40,061 nt of DNA from a virus: the IMG/VR virus record IMGVR_UViG_3300027365_000004, positions 1 through 40,061 of that record; one strand, 5' to 3'. How positions within the stretch are numbered: the first letter of the stretch is position 1; each line of letters starts with the position of its first letter. Below are positions 1-40,061 of this stretch, one piece after another. Both the position numbers and the translations under genes were made by a program. The notes under the pieces are model-generated. The model worked only from the letters and a program-made list of their open reading frames with translations. It had not been told where the DNA came from and searched no databases.

Positions 1-127
1 ACCTGAGAGCTGGTCAACGCGGTACGAGAGGTCGTCCAGCTCCGCTTGGAAGGTCTGCACGTCGTCTGCCACGGCTACAGCGTCCGCCGCGTCACTGGCT
101 GCCGCGTTGGCGGTGCTGAGGGCGGTG
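1..127. repeat. 127-bp terminal overlap, copy 1
   Basis: Bases 1-127 are identical to bases 39935-40061 and in the same orientation. The repeat lies inside the tail fiber gene and the reading frame continues across it, so the two ends join into one circle of 39,934 bp. The length equals a widely used assembly overlap size. Its position inside a structural gene also argues against it being the phage's real direct terminal repeat. Confidence 0.97.
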
Positions 128-1224
128 CTGGCGTCACTGGCGGCGGCATCAGCGGTGGACTGTGCGCTGTTGGCCGTGCTGATCGCGGTATCGGCCTTGC
201 CGTCCGCCGTGTTGGCGGTCGAGAGGGCGGTATTCGCGGTGCTGAGGGCCGTGCTGGCGTCGCTCGCAGCGCTGTTGGCCGTGTTGATGGCCGTAGTGGC
301 GTTGGAGTTGGCCGTGTTGGCCGTGTCCGAGGCCGACTGGGCAGTCAGGTTGGCCGCGTTGGCGGTGGTCAGGGCCGATTCAGCGTCATCGGAGGCGCTG
401 TTCGCCGTGGTCACAGCCTGCGAGGCGTTGCTGGTGGCCGTATTGGCGGTAGACAGCGCCGTATTGGCCGTGCTGGTGGCCGAGTCTGCCGTATTACGGG
501 CCGTGGTGGCCACGTTCAGGGCGTTATCGGCGGTGTTCAGCGCGGTGCTGGCCGTTGCGTTGGCCGTGTTGGCGGTCTGGACTGCGCCGTCTGCCGTGTC
601 CTGCGCGTCTCTGGCATCACTCGCGGCCTGTGCGGCGGAGTTCTGCGCGGCGGTGGCGCTGTTGGCGGCGTTGGTGGCTGCGGTCTGTGCGCCTTGGGCG
701 GCCGTGTTGGCGGCTGCGGCCTGTGTCTGCGCGGTGGTCGCCTTGGAATCGGCAGCCTGTGCAGTCGTCAGGGCGGTGCTGGAGTCGTCAGCGGCGGTCT
801 GTGCGAGCTGGCGAGCCTCGACCGACCGAGCATCGGAGTACGTCACGACATCCTGAATCTCCTGCACAGCGTACAGGGTCTGGCGGAAGGACGCATCCAG
901 CTCAGCTTCGCTCAGAGCGGCGAAGTCGGTGAAGTCAACCAGAGGGTACTGCTTGTTGGTTTCTCGATAGACCTTAAACCGGACGCCCGAGGCGACTGCC
1001 GGGGTAATTTCAAACTGGGTGGGACTGAGGAGCGTGCCGATGAGCGGCGTCTCCGTCTCCGAACCATCAGGATTCTCGGTGATCGTCACAGCTTTCACGC
1101 TGTCCGGGTCGAGGTACGCCTCGGTGCCACCGCCCTGATCTGGACGGGCACCAGCAAACGAGACATTCCAGATGGTAGTGGAGCCGTCCCCGACGCGGTA
1201 GTTCGTAGCGAGGTAGCTTGCCAT
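1..1224 (-). CDS. Tail fiber protein, N-terminal part (continues at 38741-40061)
   Basis: ATG at 1224 (MASYLATNYRVGDGST) is preceded by AGGA about seven bases upstream. The frame is open to base 1 and continues through the circle junction to a stop at 38741, giving 805 aa. Residues 1 to about 130 resemble the T7 gp17 N-terminal domain that anchors fibers to the tail; the segment VYRETNKQYPLVDFTDF and the following SFRQTLYAVQEIQD are characteristic. From about residue 145 to 384 the chain is an Ala/Thr/Ser-rich heptad stalk. A phage promoter lies directly upstream, so this gene starts the last late transcription unit. The protein would mediate host receptor recognition. It is longer than T7 gp17 (553 aa). 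Confidence 0.93.
   Translation of the reverse strand, partial: MASYLATNYRVGDGSTTIWNVSFAGARPDQGGGTEAYLDPDSVKAVTITENPDGSETETPLIGTLLSPTQFEITPAVASGVRFKVYRETNKQYPLVDFTDFAALSEAELDASFRQTLYAVQEIQDVVTYSDARSVEARQLAQTAADDSSTALTTAQAADSKATTAQTQAAAANTAAQGAQTAATNAANSATAAQNSAAQAASDARDAQDTADGAVQTANTANATASTALNTADNALNVATTARNTADSATSTANTALSTANTATSNASQAVTTANSASDDAESALTTANAANLTAQSASDTANTANSNATTAINTANSAASDASTALSTANTALSTANTADGKADTAISTANSAQSTADAAASDASTALSTANAAASDAADAVAVADDVQTFQAELDDLSYRVDQLSG
70..790 (-). repeat. Heptad-repeat stalk region of the tail fiber
   Basis: The translated minus strand reads as an almost unbroken series of 7-residue units of the form xTAxxAx, for example NTADNAL, STANTAL, STANTAT, TTANSAS. 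About 34 units run in register with few exceptions. At DNA level this appears as degenerate 21-bp periodicity rich in GCC/ACC codons. Such low-complexity heptads suggest a trimeric coiled coil or helical stalk. Unequal recombination between units could change fiber length. Confidence 0.85.
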
Positions 1225-1248: not shown

Positions 1249-1266
1249 TATCCTATTAGTGGATCA
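1249..1266 (-). promoter_or_regulatory. Phage RNA polymerase promoter (tail fiber unit)
   Basis: The minus strand reads TGATCCACTAATAGGATA, identical to the copies at 12302, 15711 and 28836. CCACTAATAGGA resembles the core of the T7 promoter (CTCACTATAGGGA), which places +1 at the first G of AGGAT, near 1253. It lies in the 68-bp gap between the large internal virion protein gene and the tail fiber start, about 29 nt before the ATG. Confidence 0.85.
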
Positions 1267-11269: not shown

Positions 11270-12241
11270 TCAAGGAAGCAGAATGGCCCCGGAGTATTCG
11301 GGCCTGTTCGGAGTCACACCGTAGGACAGGTGCGAGTCGACGAACCACTGCTTGTAGATTTTGTCGTAGAAGACATCGGATTCCAGCGGGATAGTCTCAC
11401 CGGCCAGCAGGGCACGCGGCGAGAACGCCAGTGCTACCAGCTTGGAGAAGTCGCCGTTGTAATCGTCGCCCAGCAGGTGGCCAGAGATGACGGACTGCGG
11501 GATGTTGTTGGTCGAGATGACCGGGATGCCGTACGCGGACAGCACCCTGGTCTTGACGCTGTTGCCCTCGGCGGTGAGGAACTCGCCGTTGACCAGTTGA
11601 TCCGCGTCGAGCAGGGTGTAATATTCGGTCGGAGACAGGAACAGCGCGAGGTCGTCGGCCAGCGGGTCGACATCTTTCTTCTCGATCTTCTCCAGCAGTC
11701 GACCGATGGCCGAGTACAGCTTGGCCGGGTCGGTGCGGTCGGCGGCTGCGGAGAGAACCTGAGTGCTACCGCCTTTGTGGCCGTCGGTGTTGCCGTACGG
11801 AGAGCTGGTGAGCTGCGCGGCCTTGGCCGCTTGGATCAGGAAGGACTGATCCTTGAACTTGGCGATCTTCTTGCCGTGTTCGTCGGAGACTTCCTTGCGG
11901 GCATCGAAGGAGGTCTGGAAGACATCGAGCAGCGGGAACGCATTGCGAGCGTAGACCACGGTGTCGATGGTCAGCGAGAGCTTCGAGAACTTGCTGACGG
12001 TTGAGGGCGGTGCTTCGCCGGGCTGCACTTTACCGAGCTGCGCTTCGCCGACTGCGAAGTTGGTCACGGTCGCGGTGCCCTTGACGGAGCGGACGGGAAT
12101 CCACGGTTCCACGACGGAACGCCGGGCGATGGTGCCTTCGACCTGCCCAGTGAACTCCTCGATTACCAGCGCCAGATCGTTAGCGGGGTCGTTGTTCTGA
12201 CGGTTTGGACGGGTGACGTTGTCCCAATTACCAAGTGCCAT
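11270..12241 (-). CDS. Major capsid protein (T7 gp10-like)
   Basis: The product is 323 aa (T7 gp10A is 345 aa), starting MALGNWDNVTRPNRQNNDPA, with AAAGGA upstream of the ATG. It lies directly downstream of the scaffold gene and has its own phage promoter and a downstream terminator, as expected for the most highly expressed virion gene. Segments such as DADQLVNGEFLTAEGNSVKT and the SAYGIPVISTNNIP region fit the HK97-fold capsid proteins of this group. The gene ends in a normal stop; I saw no obvious slippery site for a gp10B-like extension. Confidence 0.93.
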   Translation of the reverse strand: MALGNWDNVTRPNRQNNDPANDLALVIEEFTGQVEGTIARRSVVEPWIPVRSVKGTATVTNFAVGEAQLGKVQPGEAPPSTVSKFSKLSLTIDTVVYARNAFPLLDVFQTSFDARKEVSDEHGKKIAKFKDQSFLIQAAKAAQLTSSPYGNTDGHKGGSTQVLSAAADRTDPAKLYSAIGRLLEKIEKKDVDPLADDLALFLSPTEYYTLLDADQLVNGEFLTAEGNSVKTRVLSAYGIPVISTNNIPQSVISGHLLGDDYNGDFSKLVALAFSPRALLAGETIPLESDVFYDKIYKQWFVDSHLSYGVTPNRPEYSGAILLP

Positions 12242-14666: not shown

Positions 14667-15020
14667 CTAGATACGGATGCTTGGGCTTTGGCTCTCGCCT
14701 TGGTTGCCGACGAACTGCTGCCGGCGCTTACGGGCAGTGTCGTACTCGCCGGAGTCACCGACCCGTACGTCTGCGTCTTTCTCGTCAGCCTGATTGCCCT
14801 CGTTGGCACGTTGCCGGAGTAGCTGCTCACGCTGCTGGGCCGAGGATTGTGACTCAGCAGCCTGCCGAGCGGACTCAGCAGCCTGTCGTGCTTGCTGTTG
14901 GGCCTGTTGGCGGATAGCCCTCTCTTGTCCGGAGGTGTCGATCTCCGGTGCTACCATGTCACCTGCCCACTCGAATGCTTTCTCGAATGGCTTGGCGACG
15001 GTCTTGAATACTTTACCCAT
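14667..15020 (-). CDS. Small virion/tail assembly protein, T7 gp7.3-like
   Basis: The product is 117 aa, starting MGKVFKTVAKPFEKAFEWAG, preceded by GGAG seven bases upstream. A short basic amphipathic N-terminus, a long Gln/Ala-rich middle and a polar C-terminus ending SQSPSIRI resemble T7 gp7.3, which begins MGKKVKKAVKK, ends GGGINI and lies just before the portal gene. gp7.3 is a minor ejected virion protein needed for tail function. Sequence identity is low; the assignment rests on ends, composition and position. Confidence 0.65.
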   Translation of the reverse strand: MGKVFKTVAKPFEKAFEWAGDMVAPEIDTSGQERAIRQQAQQQARQAAESARQAAESQSSAQQREQLLRQRANEGNQADEKDADVRVGDSGEYDTARKRRQQFVGNQGESQSPSIRI

Positions 15021-15468
15021 CGGGTATCTCCTTGGTCATGATTCGACATGCTTCGGTGAAGCCATATCGGGCGTAGAGTTTGGGCAGTGCTTCTCCTCGC
15101 TGTCCAAGGGTCGATAGCTGGAGCTTGTTACACCCTAGCTTCCTTCCCATGTTCTCCATGCACCCAACCACATAGTCCAGTCCATGAGTACCTTTCCTGT
15201 ATCTGCTCAGTAGTACCTCATCCAGAACTCTATCATGAGAGAACTGGCAGTCTATCTGTTGGAAGATCAGTAGGTATTCATTCTCGATGAGGACTATGGT
15301 ACAGGTATCCTCTAGGTTCTGGAGGACTTCATCTACTGTCTTGTATCTGAATGTGTGTCCTGCTCCTCTGTGTAGATTCTTATAGGAGAGTAGTACATCC
15401 CTGACAATAGATCGCGCAGCCTCTACGTCCTCGACTGGATCAATCTTGCCCTGTGTGATTCGGTACAT
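15013..15468 (-). CDS. GNAT-like N-acetyltransferase (putative)
   Basis: The product is 151 aa, starting MYRITQGKIDPVEDVEAARS. The second half carries a GNAT-like pattern: DYVVGCMENMGRKLGCNKLQLST followed by ALPKLYARYGFTEACRIMTKEI, matching the usual motif B ending (LY.r.GF). The classical Q/RxxGxG/A acetyl-CoA loop is not obvious, so activity is uncertain. GC is about 43-52% along the gene against 60-70% in neighbours, and codons favour A/T third positions, which suggests recent acquisition. The start lies inside the end of the upstream 87-aa gene. Its substrate is unknown. Confidence 0.65.
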   Translation of the reverse strand: MYRITQGKIDPVEDVEAARSIVRDVLLSYKNLHRGAGHTFRYKTVDEVLQNLEDTCTIVLIENEYLLIFQQIDCQFSHDRVLDEVLLSRYRKGTHGLDYVVGCMENMGRKLGCNKLQLSTLGQRGEALPKLYARYGFTEACRIMTKEIPDG

Positions 15469-15710: not shown

Positions 15711-15728
15711 TATCCTATTAGTGGATCA
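15711..15728 (-). promoter_or_regulatory. Phage RNA polymerase promoter (virion operon)
   Basis: An exact copy of TGATCCACTAATAGGATA on the minus strand. Its upstream end overlaps the RNA polymerase stop codon (15726-15728), so TGA is used both as stop and as promoter sequence. Predicted +1 is at about 15715. It is the main entry for transcription of the structural genes. Confidence 0.87.
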
Positions 15729-18140
15729 GCAGAAAAAGTACGTGGAATCGCGTACTTGCGAGAGGTCTAAATTGCCCTTCTCGGGCGGCTCGGGCAGCAC
15801 GTCGCCGTGTGCTGCGTGGAACTCGACCAGTGGATCGTGCGCCTCGTACATCTTGACGAACTCGTCGCGGATCAGCTCGTACAGCTCCTGAGTGCGGTCT
15901 GCCGTGGTCCCGTAGTCGTCGTGGATCATCATGAGGTCGTTGATCCCACGCGCCTTGGCGGCCCGTATACAGCGCTGCATGTGCGCCGCGTCGAGGGAGT
16001 GGACGAAGTTCGGGGCGATGCCGTTGGCGTGCCGGCGCACGTCGGCCCGGTCCTCCTGATGCTCGCCCACCATGACCCTGATCTGCACGCCGCCGCTGAT
16101 CCTGCTCGTGACCCGCCTTGTTTCGACCGCATTGTACCGCTGGCGGACGAGAAAGCCGTTAGGGGTACGCCAGCACAGGTCCGTCGCGCCGGCCCGCACA
16201 AGGCGTCCTGCGGCGTTCTGGAGCCAGTCCATTGCCTCGCGTCCCTTGATGACCACCCGGCCGATGGCTGACCACATCCGGTGCGATAGCCACGTCGCGG
16301 CCTGCGTGTACTCCTCCTTGCTGAACTCGGGGGCCACGCCTTTCTGGAGGTAGTCCTTGAGGATGAAGTCGCTGCACGAGAACCGCGTCGAGCCGTACGG
16401 CAGCGTCATGACCGAGCGCTTGCAGACCTTGCGGTTGATGCCGTGTGCCAGCCATTTGTGGGCGAAGCCTGTCTCGTCCTCGGCCAGCTCCTGCTGGATG
16501 ACGCCAGAGCAGACCACGGCGACGATCCCGTAGATGTCCTGCTGCTGCTCGTTGTTGGTCAGGTTCGTCGCCTCTCCGCCCACCTCGTCGCGCATCATGG
16601 CCGAGAAGTGCTGGAGCCCGTTGCACGATCCGTCGAGGCCCACGGCTAGATGGGTTCTAAACGAGTCACCAAACTGACACCAATCTGCGTACTCGAAGCA
16701 CCATGCAAGGAACTGGAAGGGCTTGTCGGCAGCGGTCCAATCCCGGTATGAGATAGGGTCAGCCGCCATCCGCAAGATTGATTCGCGGCGCTGATCCACC
16801 CACGCAACTCGCTCGGGGAGAGTGGCCTTGTCGTATCCGAAGCGGTTGGCACCGTTGATCTTGAACCACTCAATAGCGCGAGGATCGCTGAGTCGAGCGC
16901 CTTTGCGAAACCGGATGAGAGCCTTTTGTAGATCGCTTCCTTGAGGGGACACTCCTCGGGACTGGGCGTAAGCTCGACCTCGGTAGTCCAGTTGATAGAC
17001 GAAGCGGATGCAATCCTCGTGCTTGAACTTGTCGGCGACTCGGAGGGCTTCATAGTAACGTCCCCAGTGCGTACCGCGAACCTTCTTCTCGGTGTGCCAG
17101 ATGGCGACGGCACGCTTCCATTGAACGAACTCATGCAGTTGCTCCTCGGTCATGTCGCCCTTCTCCATGTCCGGCGTGAGCCAGAAGGGCTGCTGCGGCT
17201 TCGGTATCTCGGCTTGGCACAGCACATCGCCGACATCGAAGTGCCGGGATACGAGCTTGACCGTGTCCAGAATGCGGGTGTTGATCGACCATTCCGTGTC
17301 TTGCAGGGCGGTCAGGTCGTCGAGTACCGCCTGCGGCACCTCGTCGCTCCCGATGAGTGGGCGGCCAGTGATGCAGCTCGGGGCAGTCCGTCGCATCTCG
17401 GGCGTATGCCAGCCGCCGTCCATCGGGGATACCCACGGCTTGGGCCGCTCGATGCAGGGCATAACCTGCGGGAGCGTGAGGCTGACGAAGCTCTTGATGT
17501 TGTCCAGCAGATCGAACACGTCGGGGCTCAGGGCCACGAACCGTTCCGATTTGCCCTGCACCGCCCGGATCGTCGTGGCGATCATGTCGAGGTCGGCGAG
17601 TTCGTGCAGCAGCGCCATGCCGACCAGCACCCTGTCTGCCGTGGACCAGTCCGGCAGGGCGATGCCTTCCTTCTCCGCTTGGTTACGGAACACGTTGAGC
17701 CGGTGGCGCTCGCTGCGACTCATGCGGTTCTTGAGGTCGGATACGAGGACGTTGAACAGCGCCGGCTCAATCTCCTCGAACTCCCGCAGCACGACCTCGC
17801 CAAATACGAGGTTGCCCACCCGCTTGGCGAGGTCGGTCAGGTTCAGCTCAGCTTCACCGACCAGCACGTTGAGTGCAGTCTTGACGGTGAGGTACGAGAT
17901 AACGTCCGAGTCTACCCCGTCCAGCAGCTTGGCGACCCGGTTCTTCCGTGACGGGCCGGAACCAACCGCCGCGTACTTCGCAGCGATCACCTCGCTAAGT
18001 GGCAAGACGAAGCGCCGATAGACCGATGCTGCATAGGGGTTGGCGCTTGCCCGGCTGTGCTGCTCGTTCTTCTCGTAGGCGTTGAGGGCCAGCTCCTGAC
18101 CCTTCTCCACCATCTCGCGCTCTAGTTCGGCCTGTGTCAT
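15726..18140 (-). CDS. DNA-directed RNA polymerase, single-subunit T7 type
   Basis: The product is 804 aa (T7 is 883 aa). Catalytic motifs are intact: motif A DGSCNGLQHFSAM with Asp near 503 (T7 D537), motif B KRSVMTLPYGS with Lys near 574 and Tyr near 582 (T7 K631, Y639), and motif C IHDDYGT with Asp near 741 (T7 D812). The C-terminus ends STYFFC where T7 ends FAFA. The gene follows ligase by 9 bp, with GAGG ahead of the ATG, and closes the replication module; a cognate promoter begins at its stop codon. It would transcribe from the promoters listed here. Placement after the replication genes defines the phiKMV-like gene order. Confidence 0.98.
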   Translation of the reverse strand: MTQAELEREMVEKGQELALNAYEKNEQHSRASANPYAASVYRRFVLPLSEVIAAKYAAVGSGPSRKNRVAKLLDGVDSDVISYLTVKTALNVLVGEAELNLTDLAKRVGNLVFGEVVLREFEEIEPALFNVLVSDLKNRMSRSERHRLNVFRNQAEKEGIALPDWSTADRVLVGMALLHELADLDMIATTIRAVQGKSERFVALSPDVFDLLDNIKSFVSLTLPQVMPCIERPKPWVSPMDGGWHTPEMRRTAPSCITGRPLIGSDEVPQAVLDDLTALQDTEWSINTRILDTVKLVSRHFDVGDVLCQAEIPKPQQPFWLTPDMEKGDMTEEQLHEFVQWKRAVAIWHTEKKVRGTHWGRYYEALRVADKFKHEDCIRFVYQLDYRGRAYAQSRGVSPQGSDLQKALIRFRKGARLSDPRAIEWFKINGANRFGYDKATLPERVAWVDQRRESILRMAADPISYRDWTAADKPFQFLAWCFEYADWCQFGDSFRTHLAVGLDGSCNGLQHFSAMMRDEVGGEATNLTNNEQQQDIYGIVAVVCSGVIQQELAEDETGFAHKWLAHGINRKVCKRSVMTLPYGSTRFSCSDFILKDYLQKGVAPEFSKEEYTQAATWLSHRMWSAIGRVVIKGREAMDWLQNAAGRLVRAGATDLCWRTPNGFLVRQRYNAVETRRVTSRISGGVQIRVMVGEHQEDRADVRRHANGIAPNFVHSLDAAHMQRCIRAAKARGINDLMMIHDDYGTTADRTQELYELIRDEFVKMYEAHDPLVEFHAAHGDVLPEPPEKGNLDLSQVRDSTYFFC

Positions 18141-31441: not shown

Positions 31442-31861
31442 CTATGAGATAGTGAAGTAGTCGTCGCCGTCGACGGTGTAGGACTCGGGCTCACTGCCGG
31501 CGATGGTCGGGTCGAAGCGGTGCCATTTGCCGGGCAGAAACTCAAGCTGTCCTTGCTCACGCCCGTCGGTGTACAGCAGGCAGCCGACATCATCCTCGCC
31601 CACAAACAAGACGGACTCTTGGCTGTACCGGCGGGCCAGCTCAGCGAACGAGGCCACATGATTCTCGGTCAGCACGTCGACCTCGACGAGGAACGAACGC
31701 TCACGCTGGCCACGGTACACACCAGTCACCTCACGGAATCCCTGAATGCCACCAGCCAGCAGGCTAGCAGTCAGGTCACGGCGCAGGAAGTGATGCACGT
31801 TGCGGTTCTGCTCCGGGCTGATGGTCGAGAGCTGGGCAGAGATGAGAACTTTGATGGTCAT
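31442..31861 (-). CDS. Early protein of unknown function
   Basis: The product is 139 aa, starting MTIKVLISAQLSTISPEQNR. GGAG eight bases before the ATG at 31861 selects this start over longer in-frame options. It has two apparent halves: helical with FREVTGVYRGQRERSFLVEV up to about 65, then SFAELARRYSQESVLFVGED and a terminal LEFLPGKWHRFDP segment. I recall similar short proteins in other lytic phages but know no function. Confidence 0.78.
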   Translation of the reverse strand: MTIKVLISAQLSTISPEQNRNVHHFLRRDLTASLLAGGIQGFREVTGVYRGQRERSFLVEVDVLTENHVASFAELARRYSQESVLFVGEDDVGCLLYTDGREQGQLEFLPGKWHRFDPTIAGSEPESYTVDGDDYFTIS

Positions 31862-31901
31862 GGTCGTAACTCCAGTGTCAGTCAGTGATATAGCAGGCAG
31901 A

Positions 31902-32033
31902 TCAAAGGATCGAGTAACATCCGAACCAATACAGGTGGTCATCGACGCGCAGCGCTACCGGCGTGCTGCGGTACATTCGGGTGACACAAACGGTGCCGCG
32001 TGGGTACTGGTACATGTTCACAAAATCTCTCAT
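31902..32033 (-). CDS. 43-aa early protein of unknown function
   Basis: ATG at 32033 with GGAG eight bases ahead. The product starts MRDFVNMYQYPRGTVCVTRM and ends LYWFGCYSIL; it is Tyr/Arg-rich and ends hydrophobic. Its presence fills an otherwise empty 170-bp gap between neighbours. No family recognised. Confidence 0.6.
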   Translation of the reverse strand: MRDFVNMYQYPRGTVCVTRMYRSTPVALRVDDHLYWFGCYSIL

Positions 32034-38193: not shown

Positions 38194-38493
38194 TCAGTGC
38201 GTCATCCCATAGGTTGCGCCCTCCATCGCTAGGTCTGCGTCCTCGGCGGAGAAGCCTCGGGCTTTGGCCCGGCTGCGCAGGGCCTCCTTGAGCTGGGCGA
38301 CTTCATCATCGTCGTCATCGACGGCTGCGATGTTGTTGTCCTTGAGGAACTTGGCGATTACCGCCATCTGCGGAGCAGACAGCGAGGCCGGAATCTCCTC
38401 GCCCTCCTCGTTGGTGCTCGGTTCGAGAAGGGAGAGCAGGTATTCGGTGAAGATAGCGTGAAGCTGGCCGAGCTTGTCACTCGTCGCTGCCAT
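38194..38493 (-). CDS. Terminase small subunit (DNA maturase A, T7 gp18-like)
   Basis: The product is 99 aa (T7 gp18 is 89 aa), starting MAATSDKLGQLHAIFTEYLL. An N-terminal helical segment, SAPQMAVIAKFLKDNNIAAV near the middle, and an acidic stretch (DDDDDE) fit phage gp18-like subunits, which select the DNA for packaging. It overlaps the holin gene end by 17 bp and precedes the large subunit. Confidence 0.87.
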   Translation of the reverse strand: MAATSDKLGQLHAIFTEYLLSLLEPSTNEEGEEIPASLSAPQMAVIAKFLKDNNIAAVDDDDDEVAQLKEALRSRAKARGFSAEDADLAMEGATYGMTH

Positions 38494-38728
38494 GATCTTT
38501 CTCCCTTGCTCGTTTGGTGTTGACGCGAATCTCCTTCCGTCGCTTGATGCGCGGAGTAATCCAGCGGTCCTTGATTAGAAAGTAGATTTGAAGTAAGGTG
38601 TACACGAGAGTCGCTACCACGAGGATGTCGGGTAGCGGAATCCCGAATACAGTGATGCCCCCTGCCGCGATGGAGGGGGCCAGCTTAGAGGCAGCCGAAG
38701 TAACCCCCTCCATCTGCGTAGACATCAT
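38477..38728 (-). CDS. Class II-type holin (T7 gp17.5-like)
   Basis: The product is 83 aa, starting MMSTQMEGVTSAASKLAPSI. Two hydrophobic segments (about 20-30 and 35-53, ILVVATLVYTLLQIYFLI) and a strongly basic C-terminus (DRWITPRIKRRKEIRVNTKR) match the T7 holin layout, including the VYTLLQI segment and the place right after the tail fiber. GGAGG is only one base from the first ATG and four from the second (38725), so start at Met2 is likely; Met6 could also serve. It would permeabilise the inner membrane to release endolysin. Confidence 0.83.
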   Translation of the reverse strand: MMSTQMEGVTSAASKLAPSIAAGGITVFGIPLPDILVVATLVYTLLQIYFLIKDRWITPRIKRRKEIRVNTKRAREKDHGSDE

Positions 38729-38740
38729 GCCTCCTTGTTG

Positions 38741-40061
38741 TTATAGGATATGACCACCGAACCAGCTAGGCACAGTACCGGACGTGTTAGCATGGATAGT
38801 CACTTGGCCGGCTTGGTAAACCGCCATACGATCACCGGCATTCATGTAGATGTACACCTCGATACGGGCAGAGGTATACGTGTTCCCGCCGTTGAGGTCG
38901 GCACCGCCCGGAGCAAAGCCTTGCGGGCCGCCCGGCTGGGAACCACTACCATCCATGCGCACACCATTCTTCATGAACCCGAAGTTCGCGGCTTGGTCGT
39001 TATTAGGGCGACGCATTAACTGCGCAAAGAAGTAGTACATCCCTGCGATGGGTGCAACGAACTCGTGGTTAGTACGGTCGAACAGAGAATCAGGATACCA
39101 CCAAGATGTGTCGTGGCCCGAGAAGTACGTATCCTGCGCCAAATCCGTCCAGCTAACCTTCGTGTTGCCTGTACCAGTAGTCTGTACTATAGTCTTAGGA
39201 ACTTGGAAGTACAGTGCTTGGTTAACGGGCGTGCGGGTATAGCCGCCAACTAGCTCTTTGCGAGCGTCTATCTCAGTCTTGGTGTAGTACCGAGAGTCGT
39301 GGTCCCCGCTGGTCTTATGTGTAGCCAGTGCTTGTGAGGCAGAAGCTACCGCAGAACTGACTGCCTTGGCAGTTGCTGCTACTGCGGAGCTGGTGCTGCC
39401 TGTGCTGTCTGAGAGCTGGACGATACCAGCCGTGTTGGTGGTCGCCGTCGGCAGCTCGCTCTCGCGGAGATACTGCGGGTGCGGATCGGTCGCGCCTTCG
39501 TGCGTCGATACCGCGTTAGCAGCCGAGGCGCTGGAGATTGTGGTGGCCTGTGCGTTCGTGGTCAGCTCGCCAGAGGCGGAGCCTACGTTGTAGCTCGCCG
39601 CCTCACCCAGCCCCGAGGTCAGGGCGTACTGCGGGTGCGGATTGCTGGCGTTGGTGTGCGCAGTGACGGCGTTGTTCACGACCGACGTGACCCGAGAGTT
39701 GGTGGTCAGCTCTCCTGTTGCGATCCCGACATCGTAGGCGGCTGCTCCGCCGACTTCTTCTGCGGTGAGGTACTGCGGGTGGGGGTCGGCTGCCGCTTCG
39801 TGGTCGGCAATTCCTTGCCCAACGGCAGATGAAACTTCACTCGTTGAGAGGACATCGAGGTTGCTCCGGGCTACGATGGCGTCGTTGACATCGCTGAGGT
39901 TGTTGGACCCAAGCATCAGGTCGCTGGTGTCGCCACCTGAGAGCTGGTCAACGCGGTACGAGAGGTCGTCCAGCTCCGCTTGGAAGGTCTGCACGTCGTC
40001 TGCCACGGCTACAGCGTCCGCCGCGTCACTGGCTGCCGCGTTGGCGGTGCTGAGGGCGGTG
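38741..40061 (-). CDS. Tail fiber protein, C-terminal part (continues from 1-1224)
   Basis: This is the same gene as 1-1224; the frame is open to the window end and bases 39935-40061 duplicate 1-127. After the heptad stalk come three DPHPQYL/NPHPQYA repeats, about 60 residues apart, typical of fiber shafts. The last roughly 140 residues look C1q-like: HEFVAPIAGMYYFFAQL, FGFMKNGVRM, MNAGDRMAVYQAG and the end SWFGGHIL. GC falls to about 47-55% here, against over 60% in the shaft. It is the likely receptor-binding tip. A GTG at 40006 that can be read as a start is internal to the full gene. Confidence 0.9.
   Translation of the reverse strand, partial: TALSTANAAASDAADAVAVADDVQTFQAELDDLSYRVDQLSGGDTSDLMLGSNNLSDVNDAIVARSNLDVLSTSEVSSAVGQGIADHEAAADPHPQYLTAEEVGGAAAYDVGIATGELTTNSRVTSVVNNAVTAHTNASNPHPQYALTSGLGEAASYNVGSASGELTTNAQATTISSASAANAVSTHEGATDPHPQYLRESELPTATTNTAGIVQLSDSTGSTSSAVAATAKAVSSAVASASQALATHKTSGDHDSRYYTKTEIDARKELVGGYTRTPVNQALYFQVPKTIVQTTGTGNTKVSWTDLAQDTYFSGHDTSWWYPDSLFDRTNHEFVAPIAGMYYFFAQLMRRPNNDQAANFGFMKNGVRMDGSGSQPGGPQGFAPGGADLNGGNTYTSARIEVYIYMNAGDRMAVYQAGQVTIHANTSGTVPSWFGGHIL
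39935..40061. repeat. 127-bp terminal overlap, copy 2
   Basis: Identical to bases 1-127. Together they close the circle inside the tail fiber gene; the frame joins without a shift. Confidence 0.97.

Follow-up and report, generated by a model that had tools for sequence, protein, structure and literature searches.

The tail fibre gene of a T7-like phage was analysed in a stretch of 40,061 nucleotides (IMG/VR virus record IMGVR_UViG_3300027365_000004, positions 1 to 40,061), hereafter called the window. The end of this fibre, which belongs to an Autographiviridae-type podophage, is probably (at a rough probability of 0.85) a C1q-type jelly-roll head which would serve as a trimeric receptor binder and would have been acquired by recombination from a genome of lower guanine-plus-cytosine (GC) content. 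The domain order of the fibre, the C1q homology of its tip and a compositional break inside the gene were observed directly, as was the fact that close relatives with this anchor and joint bear different tips. An earlier note, made from the sequence alone, had described a C1q/TNF-like C-terminus on DNA of lower GC than the shaft, behind a T7-like N-terminus, and had proposed a modular swap of the receptor-binding end.

Domain order of the tail fibre

The two ends of the window are identical over 127 bases (1-127 and 39935-40061). The window is a circularised contig with 39,934 unique bases and an arbitrary end that lies inside the tail fibre gene; annotation of the window alone therefore cuts this gene in two. 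Once joined, the gene occupies the minus strand, first from 1224 to 1 and then from 39934 to 38741, and encodes 805 amino acids with no internal stop. It is composed as follows.

835..1224, minus strand: T7-type tail-attachment anchor, residues 1-130 (PF03906, tail-fibre PHROGs, tblastn)
40..834, minus strand: Ala/Ser/Thr-rich coiled-coil-like shaft, residues 131-395 (PF11839 Alanine_zipper, 2.9e-10)
39434..39973, minus strand: repeat region with three [DN]PHPQY copies, residues 396-575 (sequence, third-position GC residuals)
39323..39439, minus strand: Phage_fiber_2 repeat, residues ~574-612 (PF03406, 32.1 bits, cut-off 22)
39266..39319, minus strand: joint HKTSGDHDSRYYTKTEID, residues 614-631, shared with fibres bearing unrelated tips
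38744..39256, minus strand: C1q-like tip, putatively receptor-binding, residues 635-805 (171 amino acids), on low-GC, foreign-looking DNA
38741..39934, minus strand: 3' part of the fibre gene, with the stop at 38741 and the frame open to the contig end; the 5' part is window 1-1224

The anchor scored 26.0 bits with PF03906 (cut-off 25.2), matched tail-fibre PHROGs at up to 5e-53 and gave tblastn matches in 81 phage records, chiefly of Pseudomonas phages, which confirms the T7-like N-terminus. The PF03906 domain and the position between the internal virion protein and holin, TerS and TerL are those of a T7-type (gp17-like) fibre. As far as its sequence indicates, this is the main tail fibre, equivalent to T7 gp17. 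The GC of the shaft (0.69) is mostly accounted for by its Ala-rich amino-acid content. The three [DN]PHPQY copies are located at 39770-39787, 39626-39643 and 39470-39487, and the joint motif THKTSGDHDSRYY resembles the THEGATDPHPQYL repeats, of which it would be a fourth and degenerate copy (pattern H...[DN][PH][HD].[QR]Y). A literature search for HPQY together with tail fiber gave no match.

C1q-like character of the tip

The tip carries the motif FVAPIAGMYYF at fibre residues 700-710 and matches phrog_15750, an unnamed PHROG, with 28.9 bits (E 2.2e-6). A degenerate DNA pattern encoding F-x-AP-[VIM]-AG-x-Y-x-F served to gather viral contigs, and 130 domains were used to build a viral C1q hidden Markov model (HMM). 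In the aligned viral C1q set, 61 of 61 sequences matched phrog_15750 and 60 of 61 matched Pfam C1q at E up to 1; phrog_15750 is therefore in effect a phage C1q family. The viral C1q HMM gave 54 bits on the tip and at most 2.4 bits on each of the remaining open reading frames (ORFs) of the window. Because the set had been collected with a motif from the tip itself, this motif was masked for rescoring. The masked tip scored 21 bits, the maximum of 1000 shuffles being 8.6. Comparison with C1q by hhalign yielded 98.4% for the tip alone and 99.5% (142 columns aligned) for the tip paired with that of L125, a T7-like relative (IMG/VR contig IMGVR_UViG_3300006192_000221). Two controls, the fibre's own repeat region and the tip of another relative (L001), remained at 0.1-0.2%.

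AlphaFold with an alignment produced a tip model with a mean predicted local distance difference test (pLDDT) of 68 and a predicted template modelling (TM) score of 0.66, in which the core strands are near pLDDT 90 and the loops are of low confidence. The 50 PDB entries that matched this model best in Foldseek were C1q heads and a few TNF-family ligands (probability 1.00, target TM up to 0.77), the nearest structures being the heads of C1QL, C1q, adiponectin and cerebellin besides the few TNF ligands. The nearest viral models were phage C1q proteins, some tail fibres among them. By four lines (PHROG 15750, viral C1q HMM, hhalign and AlphaFold/Foldseek) the tip is thus predicted to be a C1q-like jelly roll, as read in the earlier note, which had named a structure prediction as the check.

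Several points weigh against this assignment. The viral C1q set was gathered by a motif modelled on the tip, so that the 54 bits are in part circular, a problem that affects neither the HMM score after masking nor the phrog_15750 match. Pfam C1q (PF00386) gave 13.0 bits (E 0.12), below the cut-off of 23.7, and for this reason the tip is termed C1q-like and not a member of Pfam C1q; in other viral records with C1q-like loci, three of five were likewise under the PF00386 cut-off. AlphaFold without an alignment was uninformative (pLDDT 41), and the tip model depends on the chosen alignment. The low Pfam score and the TNF-family ligands among the structure matches would also suit a different jelly roll, such as a carbohydrate-binding or TNF-like head, with a resemblance to C1q limited to the F-x-AP-x-AG-x-Y-x-F strand. 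Such a tip is very unlikely, as the likeness reaches the last strand and the stop (WFGGHIL versus FSGYLIG), the motif-masked score exceeds all shuffles and the profile alignment spans 142 columns.

No single known fibre resembles this one evenly along its length, in agreement with the proposed modularity: the anchor matches many T7-like fibres, and the tip alone found nothing by tblastn in 50,697 phage records. The tip alone also gave no match in a back-translation search of IMG/VR, in phmmer against the PDB and in a search of NCBIfam, and the segment gave none by blastn.

Foreign composition and position of the break

Raw GC is 0.546 in the 171-codon tip, 0.618 in the genome and 0.69 in the shaft. 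Taken alone, the value of the tip is unremarkable, since about 4-7% of the genome windows of the same size have a GC as low, and comparison with the shaft says little, its GC being a consequence of its amino-acid content. GC deviation was corrected for amino-acid composition and for the phage's own codon usage. The corrected deviation of the tip over all positions was z = -7.4, most main genes lying between about -2 and +3.5, which rules out amino-acid composition as the sole source of the low GC. Residuals of third-position GC (GC3) revealed a change-point at residues 577-593 (window ~39382-39430): z was -0.9 ahead of the break and -9.1 beyond it (from residue ~592 on). The change-point statistic was 84, compared with a maximum of 30 in 2000 simulations; among 17 other main genes, the lowest 215-codon stretch had z = -5.5, in the RNA polymerase gene (15726-18140). 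Both the lower GC of the tip and the extent assigned to it in the earlier note (38741-39400) were therefore upheld.

The break is situated inside the Phage_fiber_2 repeat, just past the third PHPQY. The composition of the repeat region is native up to that copy, except for a dip at residues 426-450, and the Phage_fiber_2/HKTSGDHDSRYYTK segment is itself foreign in composition. This rules out the PHPQY repeats as the break. The earlier note had placed the likely junction in the HPQY repeats; it is instead formed by the Phage_fiber_2/HKTSGDHDSRYYTK segment, which immediately follows the third copy. Some other genes of the window phage are also GC-poor, a further point to be set against import of the tip.

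Relatives with the same anchor

The gene order around the fibre is the same in the window phage, L001 and L125, whose TerL is 75% (L001) and 69% (L125) identical to that of the window phage. Their fibre anchors are 44-48% identical to that of the window (48% in L125) and both carry the joint HRTSGDHD-[SV]-RY. The tip of L125 is C1q and 30% identical to the window tip, while that of L001 is unrelated to it. In TerL and anchor, L001 and L125 are nearer each other than to the window phage; as their tips differ, the tip type does not track the backbone. The gene that follows the fibre is given here.

38477..38728, minus strand: holin-like ORF, native, adjoining the fibre stop; kept in L125 (51%) and L001 (43%); downstream bound of the swapped segment

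This holin is orthologous in all three phages, and the exchanged piece is therefore confined to the 3' end of the fibre gene. The holin was considered as part of the foreign piece and ruled out by its conservation in both relatives.

A C1q tip in such a near lineage as L125 means that the tip may be old in the group and L001 the swapped one. The C1q tip would then be ancestral to a small phage group; the window phage and L125 would have retained it, L001 would have exchanged it for another, and its low GC would stem from fast diversifying evolution and not from import. L125, with the same joint and a homologous tip, is indeed the top-scoring relative found (45 bits, with 27 for the next). This history is nevertheless rather unlikely. 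The break inside the gene is sharp, shows no gradient and has z = -9.1 after amino-acid correction, the L125 tip is near the GC of its own contig (0.51 vs 0.55), the window phage is more distant from L001 and from L125 than these two are from one another, and the identity between L125 and the window is 30% in the tip as compared with 48% in the anchor.

A set of 47 anchor-sharing fibres, drawn from TerL relatives or joint-matching loci, displayed varied ends, L125 being the sole clear C1q tip and L190 a weak one. In the latter (L190:3282-5498), a fibre of T7 type, collagen repeats and a GDSL lipase domain are accompanied by an end of weak C1q likeness (20.5 bits). Unrelated tips on the same anchor in close relatives and a compositional break at the junction characterise the fibre as a modular, putatively receptor-binding protein. 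The swap proposed earlier is supported by these two observations; the receptor-binding part of the proposal is a probable role of the tip.

The joint as exchange site

The joint H-[KR]-TSGDHD-x-RY was found directly before unrelated tips in L192-L207, which are unrelated phages and prophages. A scan of genome contigs with a profile of the window/L125 tip pair mainly retrieved the joint; besides phages, genomes assigned to Halomonas, Roseburia and others contain it. From the authors' reading of the sequences, with no profile match, the ends after the joint appear S74-chaperone-like (L206), collar-like (L205) or of a short FLRIAE type (L192). It is possible, although this is put forward tentatively, that Phage_fiber_2 together with H-[KR]-TSGDHD-x-RY acts as a general socket into which fibre tips are plugged. 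T7-like phages and prophages whose hosts are far apart would have retained it as a joint for recombination and folding, and heads of the C1q, S74-chaperone, collar and other types would replace one another at this single site.

Proposed explanation

The conserved N-terminus would dock the trimeric fibre onto the tail, and the Ala-zipper shaft with the short repeats would keep the tip at a distance from the virion. The last ~170 residues are expected to form a C1q-type jelly roll, three copies of which would pack as a trimeric head that both locks the trimerisation of the fibre and binds the host receptor. C1q/TNF heads trimerise, and the T7 gp17 fibre is a trimer. By analogy, the C-terminal jelly rolls would make a compact, three-lobed head in contact with the host. 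Recombination with a lower-GC genome would have supplied the DNA that begins at about residue 577-593 and ends with the stop codon. Its upstream break would fall in the Phage_fiber_2/H-x-TSGDHD-x-RY joint, which is shared widely, and its downstream break would coincide with the fibre stop or lie close to it. With breaks at these two places the tip would be replaced and the anchor left untouched. The trimer, the receptor binding and the donor and direction of the transfer are what we infer in this explanation. A donor with a GC of ~0.54, for instance an L125-like phage, would fit the composition, which is speculation.

Trimerisation being established for the C1q/TNF family, and receptor binding by the tip being deduced, the tip might mainly be a C-terminal folding and trimerisation domain, with the receptor bound by another part of the fibre or by another protein. 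This is quite improbable, as the tip is the variable part among relatives with one anchor, and marine phage C1q domains are hypervariable, as expected of receptor binders (PMC3909814). For both reasons, receptor binding is the most likely role for the tip (see also PMC7468147).

Genome setting

The window phage is an Autographiviridae-type podophage. It encodes the single-subunit RNA polymerase and the head-tail connector protein of a T7-type phage, its TerL is nearest to Autographiviridae terminases, the main genes used are all on the minus strand and the gene order around the fibre matches that of Percy and ErraM. Two further features bear on the fibre gene.

39935..40061, no strand: 127-base assembly overlap, repeating window 1-127, inside the fibre gene (comparison of window ends)
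1249..1265, minus strand: probable promoter for the phage RNA polymerase, just ahead of the fibre start; sequence GATCCACTAATAGGATA, which occurs in five exact copies

The five exact copies of GATCCACTAATAGGATA are on the minus strand at 1249, 12302, 15711, 28836 and 34205, all on the coding strand; besides the fibre copy, there is one ahead of the gene that spans 11270-12241. By chance, 0.18 occurrences of the 13-base core are expected when as many as 2 mismatches are allowed. The copies are probably promoters for the RNA polymerase that the phage itself encodes.

Between connector and RNA polymerase, an ORF of 151 amino acids without Pfam match (15013-15468, minus strand) has a GC of 0.48 and a corrected z of -9.7. 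It is a second compositionally foreign gene. A protein of the S-adenosylmethionine lyase family (PF23780), an anti-restriction early gene as expected, is encoded at 31442-31942 (minus strand).

Comparison with known systems

C1q heads on phage receptor-binding proteins and the swapping of fibre tips have both been described already. C1q-like heads, proposed as receptor binders and variable between related phages, were reported in marine pelagiphages and cyanophages within metaviromic islands (PMC3909814), and C1q heads are likely receptor binders in cryoconite phages (PMC7468147). The pelagiphage and cyanophage proteins (for example those of Puniceispirillum phage HMO-2011 and Cyanophage SS120-1) share the C1q-like head with the window tip; in the window phage, however, this head is the tip of the T7-type fibre itself. 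The globular heads of mammalian C1q, C1QL and adiponectin (for example PDB 4QQO, 4QQ2, 1PK6) have the same fold as predicted for the window tip, which differs in being 12-19% identical to them, below the Pfam cut-off and part of a phage fibre. Tail fibres of extracellular contractile injection systems (eCIS) with a C1q domain (PMC12923769) likewise use the C1q head as receptor-binding domain, but they belong to contractile injection systems and not to T7-like phages.

Modular receptor-binding proteins are known from Autographiviridae, in Klebsiella phages (PMC8262889), and domain shuffling from phage fibres (PMC10684548). As in these, the window fibre consists of a conserved anchor and an exchangeable C-terminal specificity module; in contrast to the Klebsiella phages, the module is a C1q head and not a depolymerase. 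The closest counterpart is L125, which has the T7-type anchor, Ala-zipper shaft, HRTSGDHDSRY joint and C1q tip, followed by holin, TerS and TerL in the same order. It differs in its middle repeats (without PHPQY), in a tip of 30% identity that deviates less from its own contig and in a lower overall GC. In the present case, a single T7-type fibre unites the C1q head and the modular swap, and its junction has been mapped. The case offers a clean C1q-tipped fibre of this type, whose junction looks recent and can be located and for which two near relatives bracket the exchange, and it indicates a short, widespread joint sequence as the place where fibre tips change.
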